IMG/VR virus record: IMGVR_UViG_3300038701_001873
Coordinates: 1 to 46,590 of that record
Source: a virus
Strand: one strand, 5' to 3'
DNA: 46,590 nucleotides
Positions within the stretch are counted from its first letter, which is position 1, and every line of letters starts with the position of its first letter. The notes below the pieces were generated by a model. That model was not told the DNA's origin, searched no databases, and saw only the letters and a list, made by a program, of their open reading frames with translations. A program made the translations under genes and the position numbers. Below are positions 809 to 45,858 of this stretch, piece by piece.

Positions 809-1083
809 TGCCTAAGAAAGATTACAGAAAGGTTTACTTCCAAGAAATGGGCTTATACCCCGAAGAGTACAATCCTTGTGAAGTATGCAAAGCTCCTGGA
901 GTTGATGTTCATCATATTGAAGCTAGAGGAATGGGCGGAACTAAGAAAGAGGACACCATAGATAACTTAATGCTTGTATGTAGGTCTTGCCACGAAAAGT
1001 ACGGAGACAAAAAGCATTTTAAGGATTATCTAAAAACTATTCACGAAGAGGTTATGATTAGAAACGGTATCACTGTTTCTTAA
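808..1083 (+). CDS. HNH-type zinc nuclease, small
   Basis: A 91-residue HNH-fold protein. It has the zinc knuckle CEVC (residues 23-26), the catalytic motif VDVHHIEARGMGG, and a second knuckle CRSCHEKYG after DNLMLV. It likely cuts DNA during replication, recombination or packaging. It is coupled to the DUF3127 gene upstream. Its 3' end overlaps the convergent repressor gene by 14 bases. The protein is little more than the HNH core. Confidence 0.85.
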   Translation: MPKKDYRKVYFQEMGLYPEEYNPCEVCKAPGVDVHHIEARGMGGTKKEDTIDNLMLVCRSCHEKYGDKKHFKDYLKTIHEEVMIRNGITVS

Positions 1084-2017
1084 CGCTCTGAATTACATTA
1101 TATATTTGTTTACACTCGTCTAAAGGGATTACAATATCACTATACATATCGTTTAGAGAATGTAGCCTAATAAAGCCTTTGTCGGTATCGTGTTCAGTAA
1201 TCTGTTTTATTAAAATACCCTCTGTCTCGTGAACTACAACGTAATACTTCCAGCGGTGCAAGTGAAATTTATTAGTCCAATGGTGTCTTTGAATTTCTCT
1301 ACCTAGAACAATAGCTCCATCTTGGATGCTCTCAGACGTTCCATCGTCCATACTATCACCCCTTACCTCAAAACCTCTATAAGTTCCTTTAGGGTTCGAG
1401 TCTTCGGAAAAGAAGGGGTATTTAGGTAGTGTTTCTATATACTCGTCATCGCCGTACCCACTTAAAAACCCTGCGTGTGCAAATTTCGACACTAGAGGCA
1501 CTAATATAATATTAGGGCTTATAATCGGTTCAGCACTATTGCTTTTTAAATAGTTGGCACTTACTGGAAAATCTTGTAAAGGTTCGGCTTTTGGGTATCG
1601 TTCAGGATATATATCTTCGATCTCAACCCCAAACACTTCAATAATCTTATTAGCTACCTTGTCAGGAAGTGAACTTTCTTTTTCTAATAGCGATAAGCGG
1701 GATTGATGAAGCCCTAGCTTGTCAGCCAGTTCACTTTGAGTAAGGTTCTTTTCAGTCCGTAATTTAATAAGATAGTTTACATTACTATTAGTTACGTCTG
1801 AAATTTTACCCACACCATCAAGCACATAGCCCGCATTAATTTTATATAAGCCTGCAAGCTTATGCACTATGGTAGGTGGTGGTTTTGTAGAACTTTTATA
1901 ACGGCTTATTGCGGTTTTATTAAGTTCTAATTTTTTCGCTACTTCGGTTTGTTTATCTCCAAAGTTGACCTTAATAAAATCAAGGGCTTCAGCGAACCTT
2001 GTATTAATTGCTTCCAT
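1070..2017 (-). CDS. LexA-like phage repressor with two HTH domains and S24 peptidase
   Basis: A 315-residue repressor and the likely lysogeny switch of module A. Residues about 20-65 form one helix-turn-helix (TEVAKKLELNKTAISRY) and 84-130 a second XRE-type HTH (LTQSELADKLGLHQSRLSLL). The C-terminal half is an S24/LexA autoprotease: cleavage site Ala182-Gly183 (FAHAGFLSGYGD), nucleophile Ser222 in RGDSM, general base Lys271 in ILIKQI. RecA-stimulated self-cleavage is expected from the family, giving SOS induction. It is divergent from the early operon at 2129, with the operator between. Two DNA-binding domains in one repressor is unusual; one may bind the 6-3-6 palindrome at 2097-2111. Confidence 0.92.
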   Translation of the reverse strand: MEAINTRFAEALDFIKVNFGDKQTEVAKKLELNKTAISRYKSSTKPPPTIVHKLAGLYKINAGYVLDGVGKISDVTNSNVNYLIKLRTEKNLTQSELADKLGLHQSRLSLLEKESSLPDKVANKIIEVFGVEIEDIYPERYPKAEPLQDFPVSANYLKSNSAEPIISPNIILVPLVSKFAHAGFLSGYGDDEYIETLPKYPFFSEDSNPKGTYRGFEVRGDSMDDGTSESIQDGAIVLGREIQRHHWTNKFHLHRWKYYVVVHETEGILIKQITEHDTDKGFIRLHSLNDMYSDIVIPLDECKQIYNVIQSVKKQ

Positions 2018-7161: not shown

Positions 7162-7386
7162 ATGAAGAAGGGAGAATACTTTTTTGCGCAGGAAAACTAT
7201 GGAAATGTAAGAAAAGGCGACATATTAAAAACCAAACCATTCAAAAAACCATCAAGCCAAGAATTTTTGGCGGTTGTAGATAATATGCTTTGTACCTTAT
7301 TACCAAATCAAACAAAAAAAGAAACTGGGGATTTCATCCCTTATTGGAAAATACGAAAGGTTGAAGAAGTCATTAGGTCGTATTAA
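7162..7386 (+). CDS. Small protein of unknown function next to integrase A
   Basis: A 74-residue basic protein (start MKKGEYFFAQENYGNVRKGD), possibly a small beta-barrel by its alternating pattern. It is the last rightward gene of module A. It overlaps the convergent integrase gene by 14 bases. A 92-base gap separates it from the early operon, so it may have its own promoter. Possible excisionase or moron by position only. Confidence 0.65.
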   Translation: MKKGEYFFAQENYGNVRKGDILKTKPFKKPSSQEFLAVVDNMLCTLLPNQTKKETGDFIPYWKIRKVEEVIRSY

Positions 7387-8605
7387 TTACTTGCCAATGT
7401 ACTGAGTCTTGACTTTCATAGTCAAAATCATCTTGATACCTTTTATCAACCCCAGTTAAGGCGTGTCCTTGAATATTCATTAATATTTCATTGTCAAGCT
7501 TTAAATCTACCCTACCAATGGTTTTAAAGGTGTTTCTTGATACTTTAGAACTGATAGACTCATTGAGTCCTAATTCTTTGGCTACGGCTCGCAAAGGCTT
7601 GTTGTTTCCCACTAAAAAAGTGTTGTACTTTTTATTAACTTCATTATTTATAATCGGTATTGGAATAGACGGGACTATCCTGTCTCCATCTTTAAAAGAG
7701 TCCATTATTTCTTTAGCCTTTGGAAACACCCTAATATCAATCAATGAGCCACCGTACCTTTTATTTCTATTCTTGTACCTCTTAAAAGAAATCCTACCTC
7801 TGTAATAATTTTTAGAGTACGTTAGTAAACCCAAATCCATCAAGTCTATACCACCCAAATAGAACTGCAAAAGGAATATCTTAACTCTCAGGATTAAATC
7901 TTCATCATCTGACTTGAAGTTCTCTATTAGCTTAATATCTTCCTGTGAAAATGGTTTTTTCTTTTTTTGCTCTAGCAATTTTGGTCTAGCTAAGTAAAAG
8001 GGGTTTTCCACCTTTCTCCCTTTTGACCAAGTGTAAACAGAACCTAATTGATTCATATAGGCATAAGCTCCATTTTTAACACCTTTTAATTGAAGCCACC
8101 TAACAAAGTCTTTGCAAACTTCTAAGGATATTTCATTGATACCAATATTAGGGCGGAATATAAAGAACTGCCTAACGCTTCTAATTTTTGTTAATGTTGA
8201 AGCATCTTGAGACAAGTCAGATAAATATTCATTGAACACTTCTTGGAACGGTTTATCTTGTCCCATTTCTAACTCTCTAATACGGGCTTTTAGCTTGGCT
8301 AGTTCTATTTCTTTAGCTTCAGGTTCATCAACACCTTTTTCAAAAACGACTTTACATTCGTCAGGAGTCAGTTCATTCTTAACGCAAAAGTTTTCTTCAT
8401 TTATTAAAGAGGCTTTTTTGGTTAAAGCAAATTGATAGTCTTGAGATTTTTTAGGCAGCTTGGTTTTTAAGTCCCAATTCTCAGGTTGAATGTATAGCAA
8501 CGCCTTAGTGTAATAATACTTACCATCTTTTAAAAAGCGTACCTTTAACGGGTGTCCTTTTTGGGTTTTATACCGTGTATCGTAGTACAAAGAGGCGTTT
8601 AACAT
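7373..8605 (-). CDS. int: Tyrosine integrase A
   Basis: A 410-residue Bacteroidetes-type phage integrase. The ATG at 8605 is chosen over a TTG six bases upstream. The N-terminal part is an arm-binding domain (LYYDTRYKTQKG), residues about 110-205 a SAM-like core-binding domain, and 220-405 the catalytic domain. Catalytic candidates are Lys in RISFKRYKN, KxxR in ISSKVSRNTF, His in IQGHALTG and Tyr in DKRYQDDFD. The box I arginine is absent: the site reads FYLGGIDLMDL. Integrase B (44372-45610) has the same change. The arm-type repeats of attP begin at the start codon. Confidence 0.93.
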   Translation of the reverse strand: MLNASLYYDTRYKTQKGHPLKVRFLKDGKYYYTKALLYIQPENWDLKTKLPKKSQDYQFALTKKASLINEENFCVKNELTPDECKVVFEKGVDEPEAKEIELAKLKARIRELEMGQDKPFQEVFNEYLSDLSQDASTLTKIRSVRQFFIFRPNIGINEISLEVCKDFVRWLQLKGVKNGAYAYMNQLGSVYTWSKGRKVENPFYLARPKLLEQKKKKPFSQEDIKLIENFKSDDEDLILRVKIFLLQFYLGGIDLMDLGLLTYSKNYYRGRISFKRYKNRNKRYGGSLIDIRVFPKAKEIMDSFKDGDRIVPSIPIPIINNEVNKKYNTFLVGNNKPLRAVAKELGLNESISSKVSRNTFKTIGRVDLKLDNEILMNIQGHALTGVDKRYQDDFDYESQDSVHWQVINTT

Positions 8606-8830
8606 TTGCAAGGAATTTGCAATAAAATTGCAAAATTTAGACCAAAAAGCACCTATTTGGAGTAAAGTAAAATTTAAAAAACCTCTCGCTATCCTTGACT
8701 ATTCCCTAAACCAAAGACTATGAGAGGCTTTATCTTAAACTATATTCTATAAATTCTTAAATACTTGTAAGCTATCTGTTAGTTAGATAGTTATGGGACT
8801 TGCAATTTTCTATTTGCAATATTTTTGCAA
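8605..8830. other. attP: attP A: phage attachment region with arm-type repeats
   Basis: Three TTGCAA repeats (8605-8611, 8616-8622, 8629-8634) lie at the integrase start and three more (8800-8805, 8813-8819, 8824-8830) lie 170 bases away; the core should lie between. Integrase B has the same layout, including the shared stretch caattttctatttgcaat. Finding both arms together indicates an uncut attP rather than attL or attR. The core sequence cannot be told from this window. Confidence 0.65.
8676..8727 (-). terminator. Leftward terminator inside attP A
   Basis: CCTCTC and GAGAGG (8682-8687 and 8722-8727) form a stem followed on the minus strand by six U. It would stop the leftward HTH operon (9694 to 8837) before the integrase. 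The loop is long (34 bases), which lowers confidence. Confidence 0.45.
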
Positions 8831-29995: not shown

Positions 29996-30064
29996 GGGGC
30001 TGTCAGGTTTGATGATTTTTGGCTCGACACCTAAGAACAGTGGGTTCAACTCCCACCAGCTCCA
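29996..30064 (+). ncRNA. tmRNA-like tRNA-domain element, lacking the mRNA-like part
   Basis: The 69 bases join what look like the 5' and 3' ends of tmRNA. The acceptor stem GGGGCTG (29996-30002) pairs with CAGCTCC (30057-30063) and keeps the G3-U70 wobble used by alanyl-tRNA synthetase. The T arm is perfect (GTGGG, loop TTCAACT, CCCAC). The D-like side begins CAGGTTTGA as in tmRNA, and AGGT with ACCT gives a short P2-like stem. There is no anticodon arm, tag frame or pseudoknots, and no CCA after A30064, only CT and six T. No rightward promoter is visible; a leftward promoter and terminator flank it, so the transcript could instead be antisense. Confidence 0.6.
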
Positions 30065-30078
30065 CTTTTTTGTTATGA

Positions 30079-30145: not shown

Positions 30146-30604
30146 ATGAAAAGAATACTACCCTTTCTAATATTAGCTTTTGCTTGTTCTAAAGAAGAGA
30201 AGCTTGAAGACCCTTCACAATCAATTGATGCTATGGCTATTTATAAAAGCTTCGGGGAGTGGGATAGTACCCTTACTCAGTCTAATTCTAATACCTACAA
30301 CTTCTCTATTAATGACGAAACAATAGCACAGCTCACTATAAATCTTGAACCTCTATGTGTGGGGTCGTATGTTAGAACGGATACTTCATTATCAATAACT
30401 AATCAATACCCTGTTTATACAGATACAACTGTTTCATTTTTTGAGATACACGAGACTGAAGAGTATTGGTATATGGGTATGGGTAAGAGGGTTCAATTTC
30501 AGAATTTAGATACAATCTCTTTAGTGCCTAATGACACCCTTTTCCCTTTAGATATTACATTTACTGGAGAGCGAGTTTTTATATTTAAGAAGTTTTTAAA
30601 TTAA
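30146..30604 (+). CDS. Lipoprotein, probable lysogenic-conversion (moron) gene
   Basis: A 152-residue lipoprotein: signal ILPFLILAFAC with lipidated Cys14 followed by SKEEKLEDPS. The mature part is beta-rich (YNFSINDETIAQLTINLEPL). It is the only rightward gene inside the leftward late/middle region, has its own promoter, and is bounded by terminators, the classic moron layout. It could block phage adsorption or alter the host surface; the sequence itself does not show which. Confidence 0.82.
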   Translation: MKRILPFLILAFACSKEEKLEDPSQSIDAMAIYKSFGEWDSTLTQSNSNTYNFSINDETIAQLTINLEPLCVGSYVRTDTSLSITNQYPVYTDTTVSFFEIHETEEYWYMGMGKRVQFQNLDTISLVPNDTLFPLDITFTGERVFIFKKFLN

Positions 30605-30623
30605 AAAAGCCCCCGAAGGGGCT
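30603..30623 (-). terminator. Strong terminator of the middle operon
   Basis: AGCCCC, loop TTCG (minus strand), GGGGCT, then six U. It ends the leftward antirepressor operon. On the plus strand the U-run is missing, so it serves mainly the minus strand. Confidence 0.8.
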
Positions 30624-30627
30624 AATC

Positions 30628-31266
30628 TTAGTGAACCGTTATCCTTTCAAAGCATTGCTCCAGTATAAAGGTAGGATAGGCATTAACCTTTCCAAATCGT
30701 GGGTCGGGGACTTTATCTATCGGTAAACCCTGCTTTTTACAAGCATTAGATGCCATTTGCCCAACCTTAGCAGCCATTCTTAGATTAACTGGTATATCAT
30801 TTAGATTACCATATCCCGCAACTGTGAAATAGTCAGGTCTTGTTGTGGTTTTTGCCTCAATAAGCTTTACTTGATGTTCAACACTATCAATACGCTTGCG
30901 CTGCTCAACTAAAGCGGTTGCTGACATTAGAAGCTGCTCCTCTAAAGTAACGGGCTTTACTTGCTCCTTAAACCTCTTTTCAACCTCAATAAAGTATTGC
31001 CTGGCTTGCTTTCCTTTATCGCTACGCTGAAGCATTGATATTTCTTTAGCGCATTCTAAATTCAAGGCATACTCTTTTCGAGGACGACCGCTTGTTTTTT
31101 GGGAAAATCCAAAAAAGTCTTGACCTTCAATAAACCCGTAGTCTAGCATTCTCTTTATCCAAGCTGCAAAGACATCCTTAACCTCTAAAAACTTATGTAG
31201 TTCACGAGCAGAAACTACCTTGTTTCCATCTTGTTCTTCTATTTTAAATATTTCAGTACCCATCAT
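30628..31266 (-). CDS. AntA/AntB-family antirepressor
   Basis: A 212-residue phage antirepressor. Residues about 15-90 are the AntA/AntB domain (VSARELHKFLEVKDVFAAWI, GFIEGQDFFGFSQKTSG, YALNLECAKEISML). A coiled-coil linker and a C-terminal domain (YFTVAGYGNLNDIPVNLRMA) follow. Such proteins bind repressors and push toward lysis. It is last in a three-gene operon after a structured leader RNA and before a strong terminator. The tandem ATGs at 31266 and 31263 leave the exact start open. Confidence 0.88.
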   Translation of the reverse strand: MMGTEIFKIEEQDGNKVVSARELHKFLEVKDVFAAWIKRMLDYGFIEGQDFFGFSQKTSGRPRKEYALNLECAKEISMLQRSDKGKQARQYFIEVEKRFKEQVKPVTLEEQLLMSATALVEQRKRIDSVEHQVKLIEAKTTTRPDYFTVAGYGNLNDIPVNLRMAAKVGQMASNACKKQGLPIDKVPDPRFGKVNAYPTFILEQCFERITVH

Positions 31267-31562
31267 TCTTTAATTTTAGTCCATTCTCTAATTATAAAAT
31301 TGGCTGCGATTGTTGAAATCTCACCGTACTTAACTACCTGAAGAACCATATCATCAAATATTGATAAGCACTTTTCAAGTGTTTCTTCATTGACATTGCC
31401 AAGTGTCAGAGTAATGGCTTCGTCTAAAAACCCGTCTTTATTGGGTTCATTAGTAAATTGATAATTAGGATGCTTCTCTTCAAATTCTAAAAAGAAAACC
31501 TTTGTCTGTAAGGAACTCAAAACTAACTGTTGAGCAAACCTTGTGATGCCTATACACTTCAT
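31263..31562 (-). CDS. Small protein of the antirepressor operon
   Basis: A 99-residue alpha-beta protein (LSIFDDMVLQVVKYGEIST) without known motif. It overlaps both neighbours by 4 bases, so it is co-translated with the antirepressor. Function unknown. Confidence 0.72.
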   Translation of the reverse strand: MKCIGITRFAQQLVLSSLQTKVFFLEFEEKHPNYQFTNEPNKDGFLDEAITLTLGNVNEETLEKCLSIFDDMVLQVVKYGEISTIAANFIIREWTKIKE

Positions 31563-31711
31563 ATAAGCACCCCGACATTCGGGTCATTAGGATTATTAAA
31601 GAATGAGTTGAATTGATTTGGTAATCCACATTCAATAGCTACCATAACATCAAGAAATGATGTTTCCGACACTTCAGGGGTGTCTATCCCTTTTTTCTTG
31701 TCTGTTCGCAT
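31559..31711 (-). CDS. Small first gene of the antirepressor operon
   Basis: A 50-residue protein starting MRTDKKKGIDTPEVSETSFL. The ATG at 31711 is preferred because a longer frame would run back into the terminator hairpin of the leader (31735-31810). Function unknown. Confidence 0.62.
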   Translation of the reverse strand: MRTDKKKGIDTPEVSETSFLDVMVAIECGLPNQFNSFFNNPNDPNVGVLI

Positions 31712-31734: not shown

Positions 31735-31863
31735 AAAGCGTCCCCCCAATTTTTAGGTTGCGAACAAACAAGCCAGTAATACTGGATTAATTGTACCTAA
31801 TTGGAGGGACTTATCTTAATTACAATAAAATCAAGTGGTGTTATTACCGCTTGTAAGTTCGCA
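31735..31863 (-). ncRNA. Structured leader of the antirepressor operon, interleaved helices ending in a terminator
   Basis: This 287-base gap holds two long helices in an A-B-A'-B' order on the minus strand. Helix A: 31849-31863 with 31759-31773, 13 of 15 pairs around a 2x2 loop. Helix B: 31799-31810 with 31740-31751, 12 pairs including one G-U that would be C-A on the plus strand, extended by AGGT/ACCT; then GCUUUUU. A small hairpin CCAGT-ATT-ACTGG lies between. A perfect promoter motif at 31867-31874 puts the RNA start at the first base of helix A. It could be a pseudoknotted attenuator or a switch between terminator B and antiterminator A. Confidence 0.65.
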
Positions 31864-31866
31864 CTT

Positions 31867-31874
31867 CAAATATA
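31867..31874 (-). promoter_or_regulatory. Promoter of the antirepressor leader
   Basis: TATATTTG on the minus strand, start expected near 31861-31863. Confidence 0.62.
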
Positions 31875-36760: not shown

Positions 36761-36773
36761 CTATTCTTTAGTG

Positions 36774-36907
36774 CAGGGGGAGGGACTCGAACCCTCATCC
36801 TTTGATACTTATTCGTAGAGATTAACTACGACACTCTTTTACTATATCTTCATCCCGATTTTGCGGTTTACAATACAAGTGGTGCGAACCAGTTCCGCCA
36901 CCCCTGC
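36774..36907 (-). tRNA. tRNA-like element, oversized and without a clear anticodon
   Basis: Read leftward from 36907, it has a perfect 7-bp acceptor stem (GCAGGGG with CCCCTGC), a Leu-type D arm (GCG, loop GAACTGGTT, CGC), and a perfect T arm (GAGGG, loop TTCGAGT, CCCTC). The total is 134 nt, against about 75-90 for a tRNA. About 85 nt lie between the D and T arms, including a 6-bp hairpin (TCGTAG, loop TTAATCT, CTACGA), but no 5-bp stem with a 7-base anticodon loop is convincing; CCG-CAAAAT-CGG is the best candidate. It may be a tRNA with an insertion, a decayed tRNA or a tRNA mimic. No CCA is encoded. Confidence 0.5.
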
Positions 36908-42244: not shown

Positions 42245-42277
42245 TGCTTTTATTTAAGTTTGTATTGTTTTGTTGTA

Positions 42278-42309
42278 CAAATATAGTGAATTTATTGACG
42301 CTACGTCAA
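42278..42309. promoter_or_regulatory. Early promoter and operator of module B
   Basis: The leftward -7 motif TATATTTG (42278-42285, minus) drives the early operon. The perfect palindrome TTGACG-cta-CGTCAA lies at 42295-42309, between it and the repressor gene, placed to block the early promoter from upstream and the rightward repressor promoter. Confidence 0.68.
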
Positions 42310-42344
42310 TTTTAATATATAATTTTTGTAAAAATCTTTACGGT

Positions 42345-42680
42345 TTGACTGAAAGTAAAACGTTCTCAGATAGAATCAAATGGGTTCTAAAAGAGAAGAC
42401 AGGAAATAATAAACAGAAGCTTGCCGATAGTATTGGGATGTCTCGAACAATAATAACAGCCTACGTTAACGAAGATTCACCTTCGATTCCTAAAGCTGAT
42501 GTTATCGCAAAAATCTGTTCTGTATATAATATTAGTGAAAAGTGGATGCTAACGGGAAAGGGTTCTCCTGAAGGAAGTTTATTAACGGATAGTCAAAAAG
42601 TGGATAACGCCCTAATCCACGAAAAGTTGGATATGTTTATAGAGACCATAGAACACTTAAGAAGCAGATTAACAAAATAG
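42345..42680 (+). CDS. Phage repressor, XRE family (module B)
   Basis: A 111-residue repressor. TTG at 42345 is chosen as start because a longer frame would begin inside the early promoter and read through the operator. Residues about 20-75 are an XRE HTH (NKQKLADSIGMSRTIITAYV, then IPKADVIAKICSVYNISEKW), followed by MLTGKGSP, typical of CI-like proteins, and a short dimerisation helix. It has no S24 protease domain, so induction must differ from that of module A. Confidence 0.85.
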   Translation: MTESKTFSDRIKWVLKEKTGNNKQKLADSIGMSRTIITAYVNEDSPSIPKADVIAKICSVYNISEKWMLTGKGSPEGSLLTDSQKVDNALIHEKLDMFIETIEHLRSRLTK

Positions 42681-43917: not shown

Positions 43918-44388
43918 ATGAAAAAATTAATAACTCTTAGCTGTATTGCATTTAGCCTTTGTGCTTTTGCTCAGTATGATATCAAACCAACTATCGTTAA
44001 TGTTGATAGCTCTTTTTCAAAATCCGATGTCTTTTCTTCAATAAAAGTATTTTTATCTGAGAGCTACGTGAATAGTAAAGAAGCAATTCAAATGTCAGAC
44101 TCTGAAATTGGCGTGATTGTAATAAAAGGCACTTCGCAAAATTTTATAAAAGGCTTGTTTGGTTCTTCAGTAGAGGCAGGTTGGTGGCATTATACTGCTA
44201 AGTTTGAAGTGAAAGAAGGTAAGTATAGGTTTTCGGTTTACGATGTAAAATTAACAGCAGATTACGGAACTGTATTATTTAATGATGATACCCACGAAAG
44301 CTATAAAAACACAGGTAGTAAACTATTGACTGACCTTAAAGAGTCTTTTTATAATATCCCTATAAAATCTTTTAGTGACGATTGGTAG
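43918..44388 (+). CDS. Secreted protein, DUF4468-like
   Basis: A 156-residue protein with a signal peptide (ITLSCIAFSLCAFAQ, cut after AFA) and a domain (SYVNSKEAIQMSDSEIGVIV, KGTSQNF, FSVYDVKLTADYGTVLF) like the Bacteroidetes DUF4468 family, predicted to have a TBP-like fold. Host-type secreted protein on a phage; likely lysogenic conversion. It overlaps the convergent integrase by 17 bases. Confidence 0.75.
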   Translation: MKKLITLSCIAFSLCAFAQYDIKPTIVNVDSSFSKSDVFSSIKVFLSESYVNSKEAIQMSDSEIGVIVIKGTSQNFIKGLFGSSVEAGWWHYTAKFEVKEGKYRFSVYDVKLTADYGTVLFNDDTHESYKNTGSKLLTDLKESFYNIPIKSFSDDW

Positions 44389-45610
44389 TTGTATCAATAA
44401 CCTTAAAATGCACTTCATCTTGACTATCATAGTCAAAAAGGTCTTGATACCTCTTATCCATTCCTTTTAGAGTATGCCCTTGTATCTGCATTAATATTTC
44501 ATTGTCAAGCTTTAAATCACGCCTACCAATAGTTTTAAAAGTGTTTCGTGATACTTTAGAGCTTATCCCTTGACTAATTCCTAATTCTTTAGCTACAAAT
44601 CGCAAAGGGCTGTTATTATGACCCAAGAAAGTATCATATTCTGAGGTTCGCTTACCATCTTTTATTGGTGTGGGAATAAATGGCACTAGCCTATCTGAGT
44701 AATCCCTTTTGAAATAGTCTAACAAAGCTTGAGCTTTTGGGAAAATCTTAATATCTATGGACGCGCCGCCTAGCTCCTTATTTCTGTTCTTCCATCTTTT
44801 AGTGGTTATCCTGCCTTTATGGACATTTTCAGAATAGGTAAGATTTGCCAGGTCTATTAAGTCCATACCACCGAAATAGAACTGAAGCAAAAACACCTTA
44901 ACCCTGTTTAGTCTATTTTTATAGTTTGATGTATAACCTTCTAGTAAAATTATATCATCTTTTGAAAGAGGTCTTTTTTTCTTTTGCTCTAGCTTTTTAG
45001 GTCTAACTAAGTAAAAAGGGTTTTCAACACGCTTGCCCTTCTCAAATCGGTAAATTGAGCCTAGTGATGCTAAATAAGAAATTGCCCCGTTCTTAACTCC
45101 GTTATTTTGCAGCCACCTAACGAATGCGTGAGCAAAGTTTTCGTTTATCTGGTTAATCGTGCATTTAGGAGCGTATTTTTTAAACTGGTTGTAAGCGTTC
45201 CTTACGCTGTCTAAATCTTCATTTTCCTTTCTTGAATTTAAAAACTCTAGGAAAACATCTTTAAAAGGTCGGTCGTTACCATTTTCTAACTGTTTTATCC
45301 TAAGTCTAAGCTTTGCTATTTCTATTTCTTTAGCTTCAGTATTATCAAGTCCATTCTTAAAAATACGTTTGCATTCCTCAGTACTCAGGTTATTATCAAA
45401 ACAGAATTTTTCTTCGTCAATTAGACTACTAAGCTTTGAGTTGTAAAATTGATAGTCCGAATGTTGAATTGGCTTTCCATCTTTCCAATCCTTAATGTAA
45501 ATTAGCCCTTCGGTATAATGATACTGGTTATCTTTATAAAATCTAACCTTTAGAGGGTATCCCTTTCGGGTTCGGTAACGTTTATCGAGGTATAAAGAAG
45601 CTTTAAGCAT
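44372..45610 (-). CDS. int: Tyrosine integrase B
   Basis: A 412-residue homologue of integrase A along its whole length (for example LYLDKRYRTRKGYPLKVRF). The ATG at 45610 is chosen over a TTG nine bases upstream. Catalytic candidates: Lys in RITTKRWKNR, KxxR in ISSKVSRNTF, His in IQGHTLKG, Tyr in DKRYQDLFD. The box I region is FYFGGMDLIDLANL, again without arginine. It lies at the same end of module B as integrase A does in module A, with an attP just upstream. Confidence 0.93.
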   Translation of the reverse strand: MLKASLYLDKRYRTRKGYPLKVRFYKDNQYHYTEGLIYIKDWKDGKPIQHSDYQFYNSKLSSLIDEEKFCFDNNLSTEECKRIFKNGLDNTEAKEIEIAKLRLRIKQLENGNDRPFKDVFLEFLNSRKENEDLDSVRNAYNQFKKYAPKCTINQINENFAHAFVRWLQNNGVKNGAISYLASLGSIYRFEKGKRVENPFYLVRPKKLEQKKKRPLSKDDIILLEGYTSNYKNRLNRVKVFLLQFYFGGMDLIDLANLTYSENVHKGRITTKRWKNRNKELGGASIDIKIFPKAQALLDYFKRDYSDRLVPFIPTPIKDGKRTSEYDTFLGHNNSPLRFVAKELGISQGISSKVSRNTFKTIGRRDLKLDNEILMQIQGHTLKGMDKRYQDLFDYDSQDEVHFKVIDTTTNRH

Positions 45611-45858
45611 TTGCAACAAATTTGCAATAAATCTTGCAAATAATGTATTAAAATGTTGTTAATCGTTGAAAATAGGTAAATGAAGCAAGTAATTATAAAA
45701 CTACTAACCCTTGATAATACTAGGCATTTAAAGCCTTTTAACCCTGTTCAAAATTCTTTTTGCTAAATGCTTGCTTATTGCTTACCCTAATAATTCTAAT
45801 TATCTAATTATTAGTAAAATAGATTATTTACAATTTTCTATTTGCAATTATTTTGCAA
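45610..45858. other. attP: attP B: phage attachment region with arm-type repeats
   Basis: TTGCAA-type repeats at 45610-45616, 45621-45627 and 45634-45639 face another set at 45827-45833 (TTTACAA), 45841-45847 and 45852-45858. The gene-free 188 bases between should hold the core, but it shares little with attP A, so the host sites may differ. A short AGGC/GCCT hairpin lies near 45722. Both arms are present, so the site is uncut. Confidence 0.65.

Follow-up and report, generated by a model that had tools for sequence, protein, structure and literature searches.

Results

A leader with three complementary segments

What does an RNA of two interleaved helices do in front of an operon able to bring a dormant Bacteroidota phage into the lytic cycle? 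To our knowledge, little is known of lysogeny control in such phages. The window, by which we mean the whole stretch of DNA analysed, is one virus record of 46,590 bases. Its leader and the operon that follows comprise these features:

31874-31867, minus strand: TATATTTG, -7 promoter box of Bacteroidota type (from the sequence and box scores)
31863-31849, minus strand: TGCGAACTTACAAGC, segment A, the upstream target, which lies at the transcript's 5′ end and mimics the start-codon region
31832-31853, minus strand: 5′ hairpin CAAG(C)GGU...ACC(A)CUUG, competitor for the 3′ half of A (from the fold)
31810-31799, minus strand: GTCCCTCCAATT, segment B, 5′ arm of an intrinsic terminator
31773-31759, minus strand: GCTTGTTTGTTCGCA, segment A′, antisense to both A and A″, located in the terminator loop
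31751-31740, minus strand: AATTGGGGGGAC, segment B′, 3′ arm of the intrinsic terminator
31737-31733, minus strand: GCUUUUUAUU, terminator U-run, U5 (from the sequence)
31711-31697, minus strand: ATGCGAACAGACAAG, segment A″, second target, including the start codon at 31711-31709
31559-31711, minus strand: first ORF, 50 aa, positional counterpart of P1 icd
31263-31562, minus strand: second ORF, 99 aa, with an ATGA overlap with the 50-aa ORF
30628-31266, minus strand: antirepressor with AntA domain, 212 aa (from Pfam and PHROG)
30602-30625, minus strand: AGCCCCTTCGGGGGCTTTTTT, intrinsic terminator closing the operon (read from the sequence)

The first-pass annotation had described helices A:A′ and B:B′, of 13 and 12 pairs, in the order A-B-A′-B′ and ending in a U-run, and all of these are present at the positions listed above. 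The 13 pairs of A:A′ surround two U-U mismatches, and the only variant pair of helix B is, as had been noted, a U-G pair on the minus strand, where the plus strand would have A-C. The RNA of 31735-31874(-) has a minimum free energy of -42.7 kcal/mol (z = -5.4), and none of 200 shuffles folds as well. The leader had also been thought to begin at the first base of the transcript. This agrees with the promoter, since the gap between the -7 box and A is 3 nt on the minus strand of the window and a start predicted ~3-7 nt downstream of the box falls at or just inside A.

Absent from that description was the start-codon copy, A″. In the 46.6 kb record there are exactly three copies of the motif GCGAACNNACAAG, all within 166 nt, and the third contains the start codon at which the operon's first ORF begins (ATG CGA ACA GAC AAG). 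Hence A′ has two complements, one at the 5′ end of the RNA that carries it and one at the translation start. Since A′ thus has two alternative targets, the arrangement points to antisense control of the c4 type, and the original proposal survives in part: a leader RNA very probably regulates the antirepressor operon, and it would probably do so as a c4-type antisense rather than as a riboswitch sensing a ligand or protein.

The antirepressor operon and its setting

An antirepressor operon does follow the leader, as had been predicted. It runs from 31711 to 30628 (minus strand) in the order 50 aa - 99 aa - AntA, with 4-nt ATGA overlaps between the frames. The 212-aa protein belongs to the AntA/AntB family (Pfam PF08346, E 6.7e-25, 87.9 bits against a cut-off of 27) and matches the PHROG anti-repressor (E 9e-36). 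Searches of the same protein family collections gave no family match for the 50-aa and 99-aa ORFs.

Elsewhere in the window, HTH repressor-like ORFs at 1070-2017 (-) and 42270-42680 (+) and two integrase-like ORFs similar to each other at 7373-8611 (-) and 44372-45619 (-) were recognized by eye rather than by domain search. The repressor-like ORF at 1070-2017 and the integrase-like ORFs were counted in favor of a temperate phage under c4-type control. The presence of two ORFs of each kind in one record perhaps reflects two adjacent prophages or a composite record. Near the middle of the record, at ~30040-30065 (+), GTGGGTTCAACTCCCACCAGCTCCA followed by a T run resembles the 3′ end of a tmRNA gene, which is a common phage attachment site. 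A match to the Rfam tRNA model at 36772-36907 (-) covers 136 nt, with ~65 extra bases (33.4 bits), and was not found by ARAGORN; it is possibly an interrupted or decayed tRNA, or a chance match.

Homologous leaders keep the layout and exchange the sequence

The same layout lies upstream of AntA antirepressor operons in 22 leaders, that of the window and 21 others, all in phages or prophages. These leaders apparently all come from Bacteroidota, judging from named relatives, genome searches and promoter type, with host names known for some of the 22 loci only. In the relative from Sphingobacterium sp. SGG-5 (L002/L161), whose antirepressor is 53% identical, the layout is the same and the sequence different, with ATGTCAACAYAG as A and A″ and CTGTGTTGAC as A′. 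Among the 22 leaders, sequence has been replaced wholesale and complementarity kept.

A strict detector of such triples, applied to 203 AntA loci, returned 14 with a score of at least 55 as against 0.33 in dinucleotide shuffles; these 14 rows correspond to ~11 accepted leaders, since L183 and L057 each contributed two rows, one per AntA domain, and L262 was rejected. The 22 leaders were curated from the detector set and further loci, with the arms set by hand in five. Two candidates with strong A′:A″ pairing, L104 and L262, were rejected for want of a proper A or for a wrong start, and L108, judged by eye, has A-B-A′-B′ without a clear A″. Neither the detector nor curation yielded convincing triples at Firmicutes AntA loci, and many other AntA loci, including a number in Cytophagales, are without a convincing triple. 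A DNA search of phage records with the leader as query gave no match.

That homologous leaders would show compensatory changes was a prediction set beforehand, and one that could have failed. The 22 leaders bear it out, with compensatory changes at most of 12 aligned columns; column 3, for example, is C-G, T-A, G-C or A-T. The A:A′ duplex has an energy of -26.3 kcal/mol with its own partner and -8.3 (sd 3.8) with swapped partners, and the A′:A″ duplex -19.7 as against -7.3 kcal/mol, a contrast that is partly built in because the leaders were found by a search for complementarity. The own partner is the best in 21 of 22 rows for both duplexes. Positions are paired in 94.7% and 91.7% of cases, whereas permuted partners reach no more than 71%; most columns contain several pair types, and the non-Watson-Crick pairs of A:A′ are mostly G-U on the transcript strand (~25 U-G as against 4 C-A, with some scoring bias). 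As A:A′ is often stronger than A′:A″, the RNA, whether full-length or terminated, could mask its own antisense. In some homologs A:A′ is bipartite, and A″ there matches mainly one part.

Less biased evidence is provided by the shuffle count above and by the promoter box and terminator, which lay outside the search criteria, as the search required only a T run between A′ and the start codon. In 18 of the 22 leaders (2.6 expected) the 13 nt preceding A include a TTTG box, which in most is exactly 3 nt from A, and the mean -7 box score is 5.27 compared with 3.63 in shuffles. Every leader has A′ within an intrinsic-terminator loop at a distance of 0-11 nt from B′, and the B arms differ. A promoter before B, which would make A′ a separate gene, left no signal (4.32, and 4.32 in shuffles), which argues for one transcript. 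The positions of the three complementary segments thus match those of promoter, terminator and start codon exactly, and the segments have evolved jointly in the 22 leaders.

An early terminator in some leaders

In eight of the 22 leaders (L057, L083, L084, L182, L183, L213, L269 and L303) an early terminator, T1, comes directly after A, and the 3′ end of A is part of the overlapping anti-T1 helix or borders on it. Blocking A in folding raised the probability of T1 in seven of these eight, from 0.05 to 0.99 in L269 and from 0.24 to 0.83 in L084; L083 is the exception, its T1 probability falling. On this folding model, A would be a site of antisense-induced attenuation in the T1 leaders. As T1 is clear in these eight leaders only, we rejected it as a general feature, and the window has no clear T1. 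Blocking A had no effect on the B/B′ terminator of the window, whose probability was 0.90 with and without the block in a model that cannot treat pseudoknots.

Relation to known antisense systems

In phage P1, c4 RNA represses the icd-ant operon and blocks ant expression (PMC8198154; PMC12197685), and c4 antisense RNA has been listed for Proteobacteria and phages (Weinberg et al., 2010; PMC2864571). In the GenBank annotation of P1, C4 is flanked by its putative target sites, with a1 and b1 on the upstream side and a2 and b2 between C4 and icd, giving the order a1b1 - C4 - a2b2 - icd - ant with a 4-nt overlap of icd and ant1. A simple word search recovers these sites. Since a1b1 lies upstream of C4, the upstream copy A too has a P1 counterpart.

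The window leader and its 21 homologs share with C4 of P1 and P7 (RF01695) the target-antisense-target order in one transcript before an antirepressor operon, a downstream target in the region where translation of a small first ORF starts, with a 4-nt overlap between this ORF and the next frame, and a comparable spacing of the parts. The antisense of C4 is split into a′ and b′, whereas that of the window leader is one continuous segment, and C4 is a processed 77-nt RNA, whereas the leader antisense sits in an intrinsic-terminator loop and the terminator would supply its 3′ end. Also unlike C4, the leader has a downstream target that includes the start codon itself and an upstream target at its very 5′ end, and its promoter is of Bacteroidota type. 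The RF01695 covariance model, which matched P1 as a positive control (E 9.9e-15), did not match the window, L002 or any of 17 further loci, and a search of 4227 Rfam families for a riboswitch or other known leader gave, at a permissive threshold, only chance-level miRNA matches far below gathering scores. Given that the order of parts is that of c4 and that the C4 model does not match, the leader would work like c4 by anatomy and falls outside RF01695. Searches of open-access papers turned up no counterpart in Bacteroidota.

P1 itself (AF234172; L378 ~132-162) has a terminator-like hairpin and T run (ACCGCA...TGCGGTATTTTTG) after a1b1, in a T1-like position; the stretch viewed carries no terminator annotation there. 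The change in T1-like probability when the upstream target was blocked in folding was negligible in P1.

In attenuation of plasmid rep mRNA of the pT181/pIP501 type, the antisense is transcribed from the opposite strand. The T1 subset resembles these systems in that A involves or adjoins the anti-terminator helix, so that antisense binding would favor the early terminator, but A, A′ and A″ are all transcribed from the same strand, which has a single promoter signal. P22 sar is a separate small RNA and not part of a target-antisense-target leader. What it has in common with the proposed role of the leader is antisense control of an antirepressor (PMC12197685).

As a by-product, we found matches to sRNA-Xcc1 (RF02221), a family left without an assigned function in PMC2996969, upstream of AntA genes at L178 749-837 (Bartonella grahamii) and L179 3483-3570 (Parachitinimonas). 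In both loci the element lies between upstream and downstream copies of complementary target words (TAAGAAAC and CACATAG in L178), and further genomic matches at L384 and L386 have paired words in the same order. These elements are Proteobacterial and have two target words, as in C4, without a sequence or model match to the window leader. Their organization suggests that sRNA-Xcc1 may also be a c4-type RNA.

Discussion

If A′ can pair with either of two targets, how might the antirepressor be controlled? We consider it probable that the leader is a c4-type antisense RNA/attenuator which, in lysogens of a temperate Bacteroidota phage, would keep the antirepressor from being expressed. A single promoter would produce a transcript with target A as its 5′ end, and most transcripts would end at B/B′, giving a short RNA of ~125-130 nt whose terminator loop contains or borders A′. 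By pairing with A″, either in cis or in trans from RNA accumulated in the lysogen, A′ would block initiation at the first ORF, and the translationally coupled ORFs downstream, including the AntA antirepressor, would stay off. Given the complementarity and the overlapping frames, the leader would repress translation of the first ORF, and so the antirepressor, as in the c4 system. Within one molecule, A:A′ would compete with A′:A″ and leave A″ free, and it could in this way protect the mRNA from self-silencing. A′ from another molecule, by pairing with nascent A, would remove this competitor, and in the T1 subset it is predicted to favor T1. Termination, the small RNA, its action in trans, the direction of the effect and a role in immunity are predictions from this anatomy.

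One alternative is an attenuator that acts only in cis, with no trans-acting RNA. Co-transcriptional A:A′ pairing would hinder B/B′ and leave the start codon free (on); in the off state, A would be held by its own 5′ hairpin, a ligand or a protein, such that B/B′ forms and A′ kisses A″. This would account for the strong A:A′ pairing in nearly all leaders, the local competitor hairpin for A in several and the position of A′ adjoining B′ in all of them. It does not predict the unchanged terminator probability of the window with A blocked, as far as a model that cannot treat pseudoknots can tell, and a single antisense with two targets accounts better for the likeness of A to the start-codon region. 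We therefore regard this alternative as unlikely.

Repeated operators occur in temperate phages, and the window has three near-identical 13-bp sites beside a promoter. Given this precedent, the repeats could be DNA operators for a phage repressor, three sites with one inverted, and the RNA complementarity could be incidental. However, the third site is in start-codon register and A′ in a terminator loop in all 22 leaders, and the departures from A:A′ pairing are, some scoring bias aside, mostly those tolerated on the transcript strand. Operators would also have had to change sequence wholesale with their register kept, and we judge this explanation very improbable.

Finally, A might serve as a decoy start of translation or as a leader peptide (GTG CGA ACT TAC AAG CGG TAA) for ribosome-mediated attenuation, as A begins with NTG like the real start in many leaders and with a 6-codon ORF in the window, but its start codon is not conserved (CTG in L193, GCG/ACG for ATG in L083, L148, L269 and L277) and the frames after A have no common length, which leaves this reading with hardly any credibility.

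For c4-type control, several implications can be envisioned. A leader with the logic of c4 and no detectable sequence relation to C4 would point to more than one origin of antirepressor silencing by a self-encoded antisense, and a function is suggested for the orphan family sRNA-Xcc1. The findings also draw attention to the upstream target, a1b1 in P1, as its counterpart A is strong and well conserved in these leaders. More tentatively, target-antisense-target leaders may be a general, repeatedly evolved antirepressor lock. In the Bacteroidota class, the terminated RNA would both block translation at A″ and bind nascent A, promoting termination and thus a self-sustaining silence, and different sets of A′ would define separate RNA immunity groups. 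If control is indeed of the c4 type, phages that share RNA immunity would be predictable from sequence alone.
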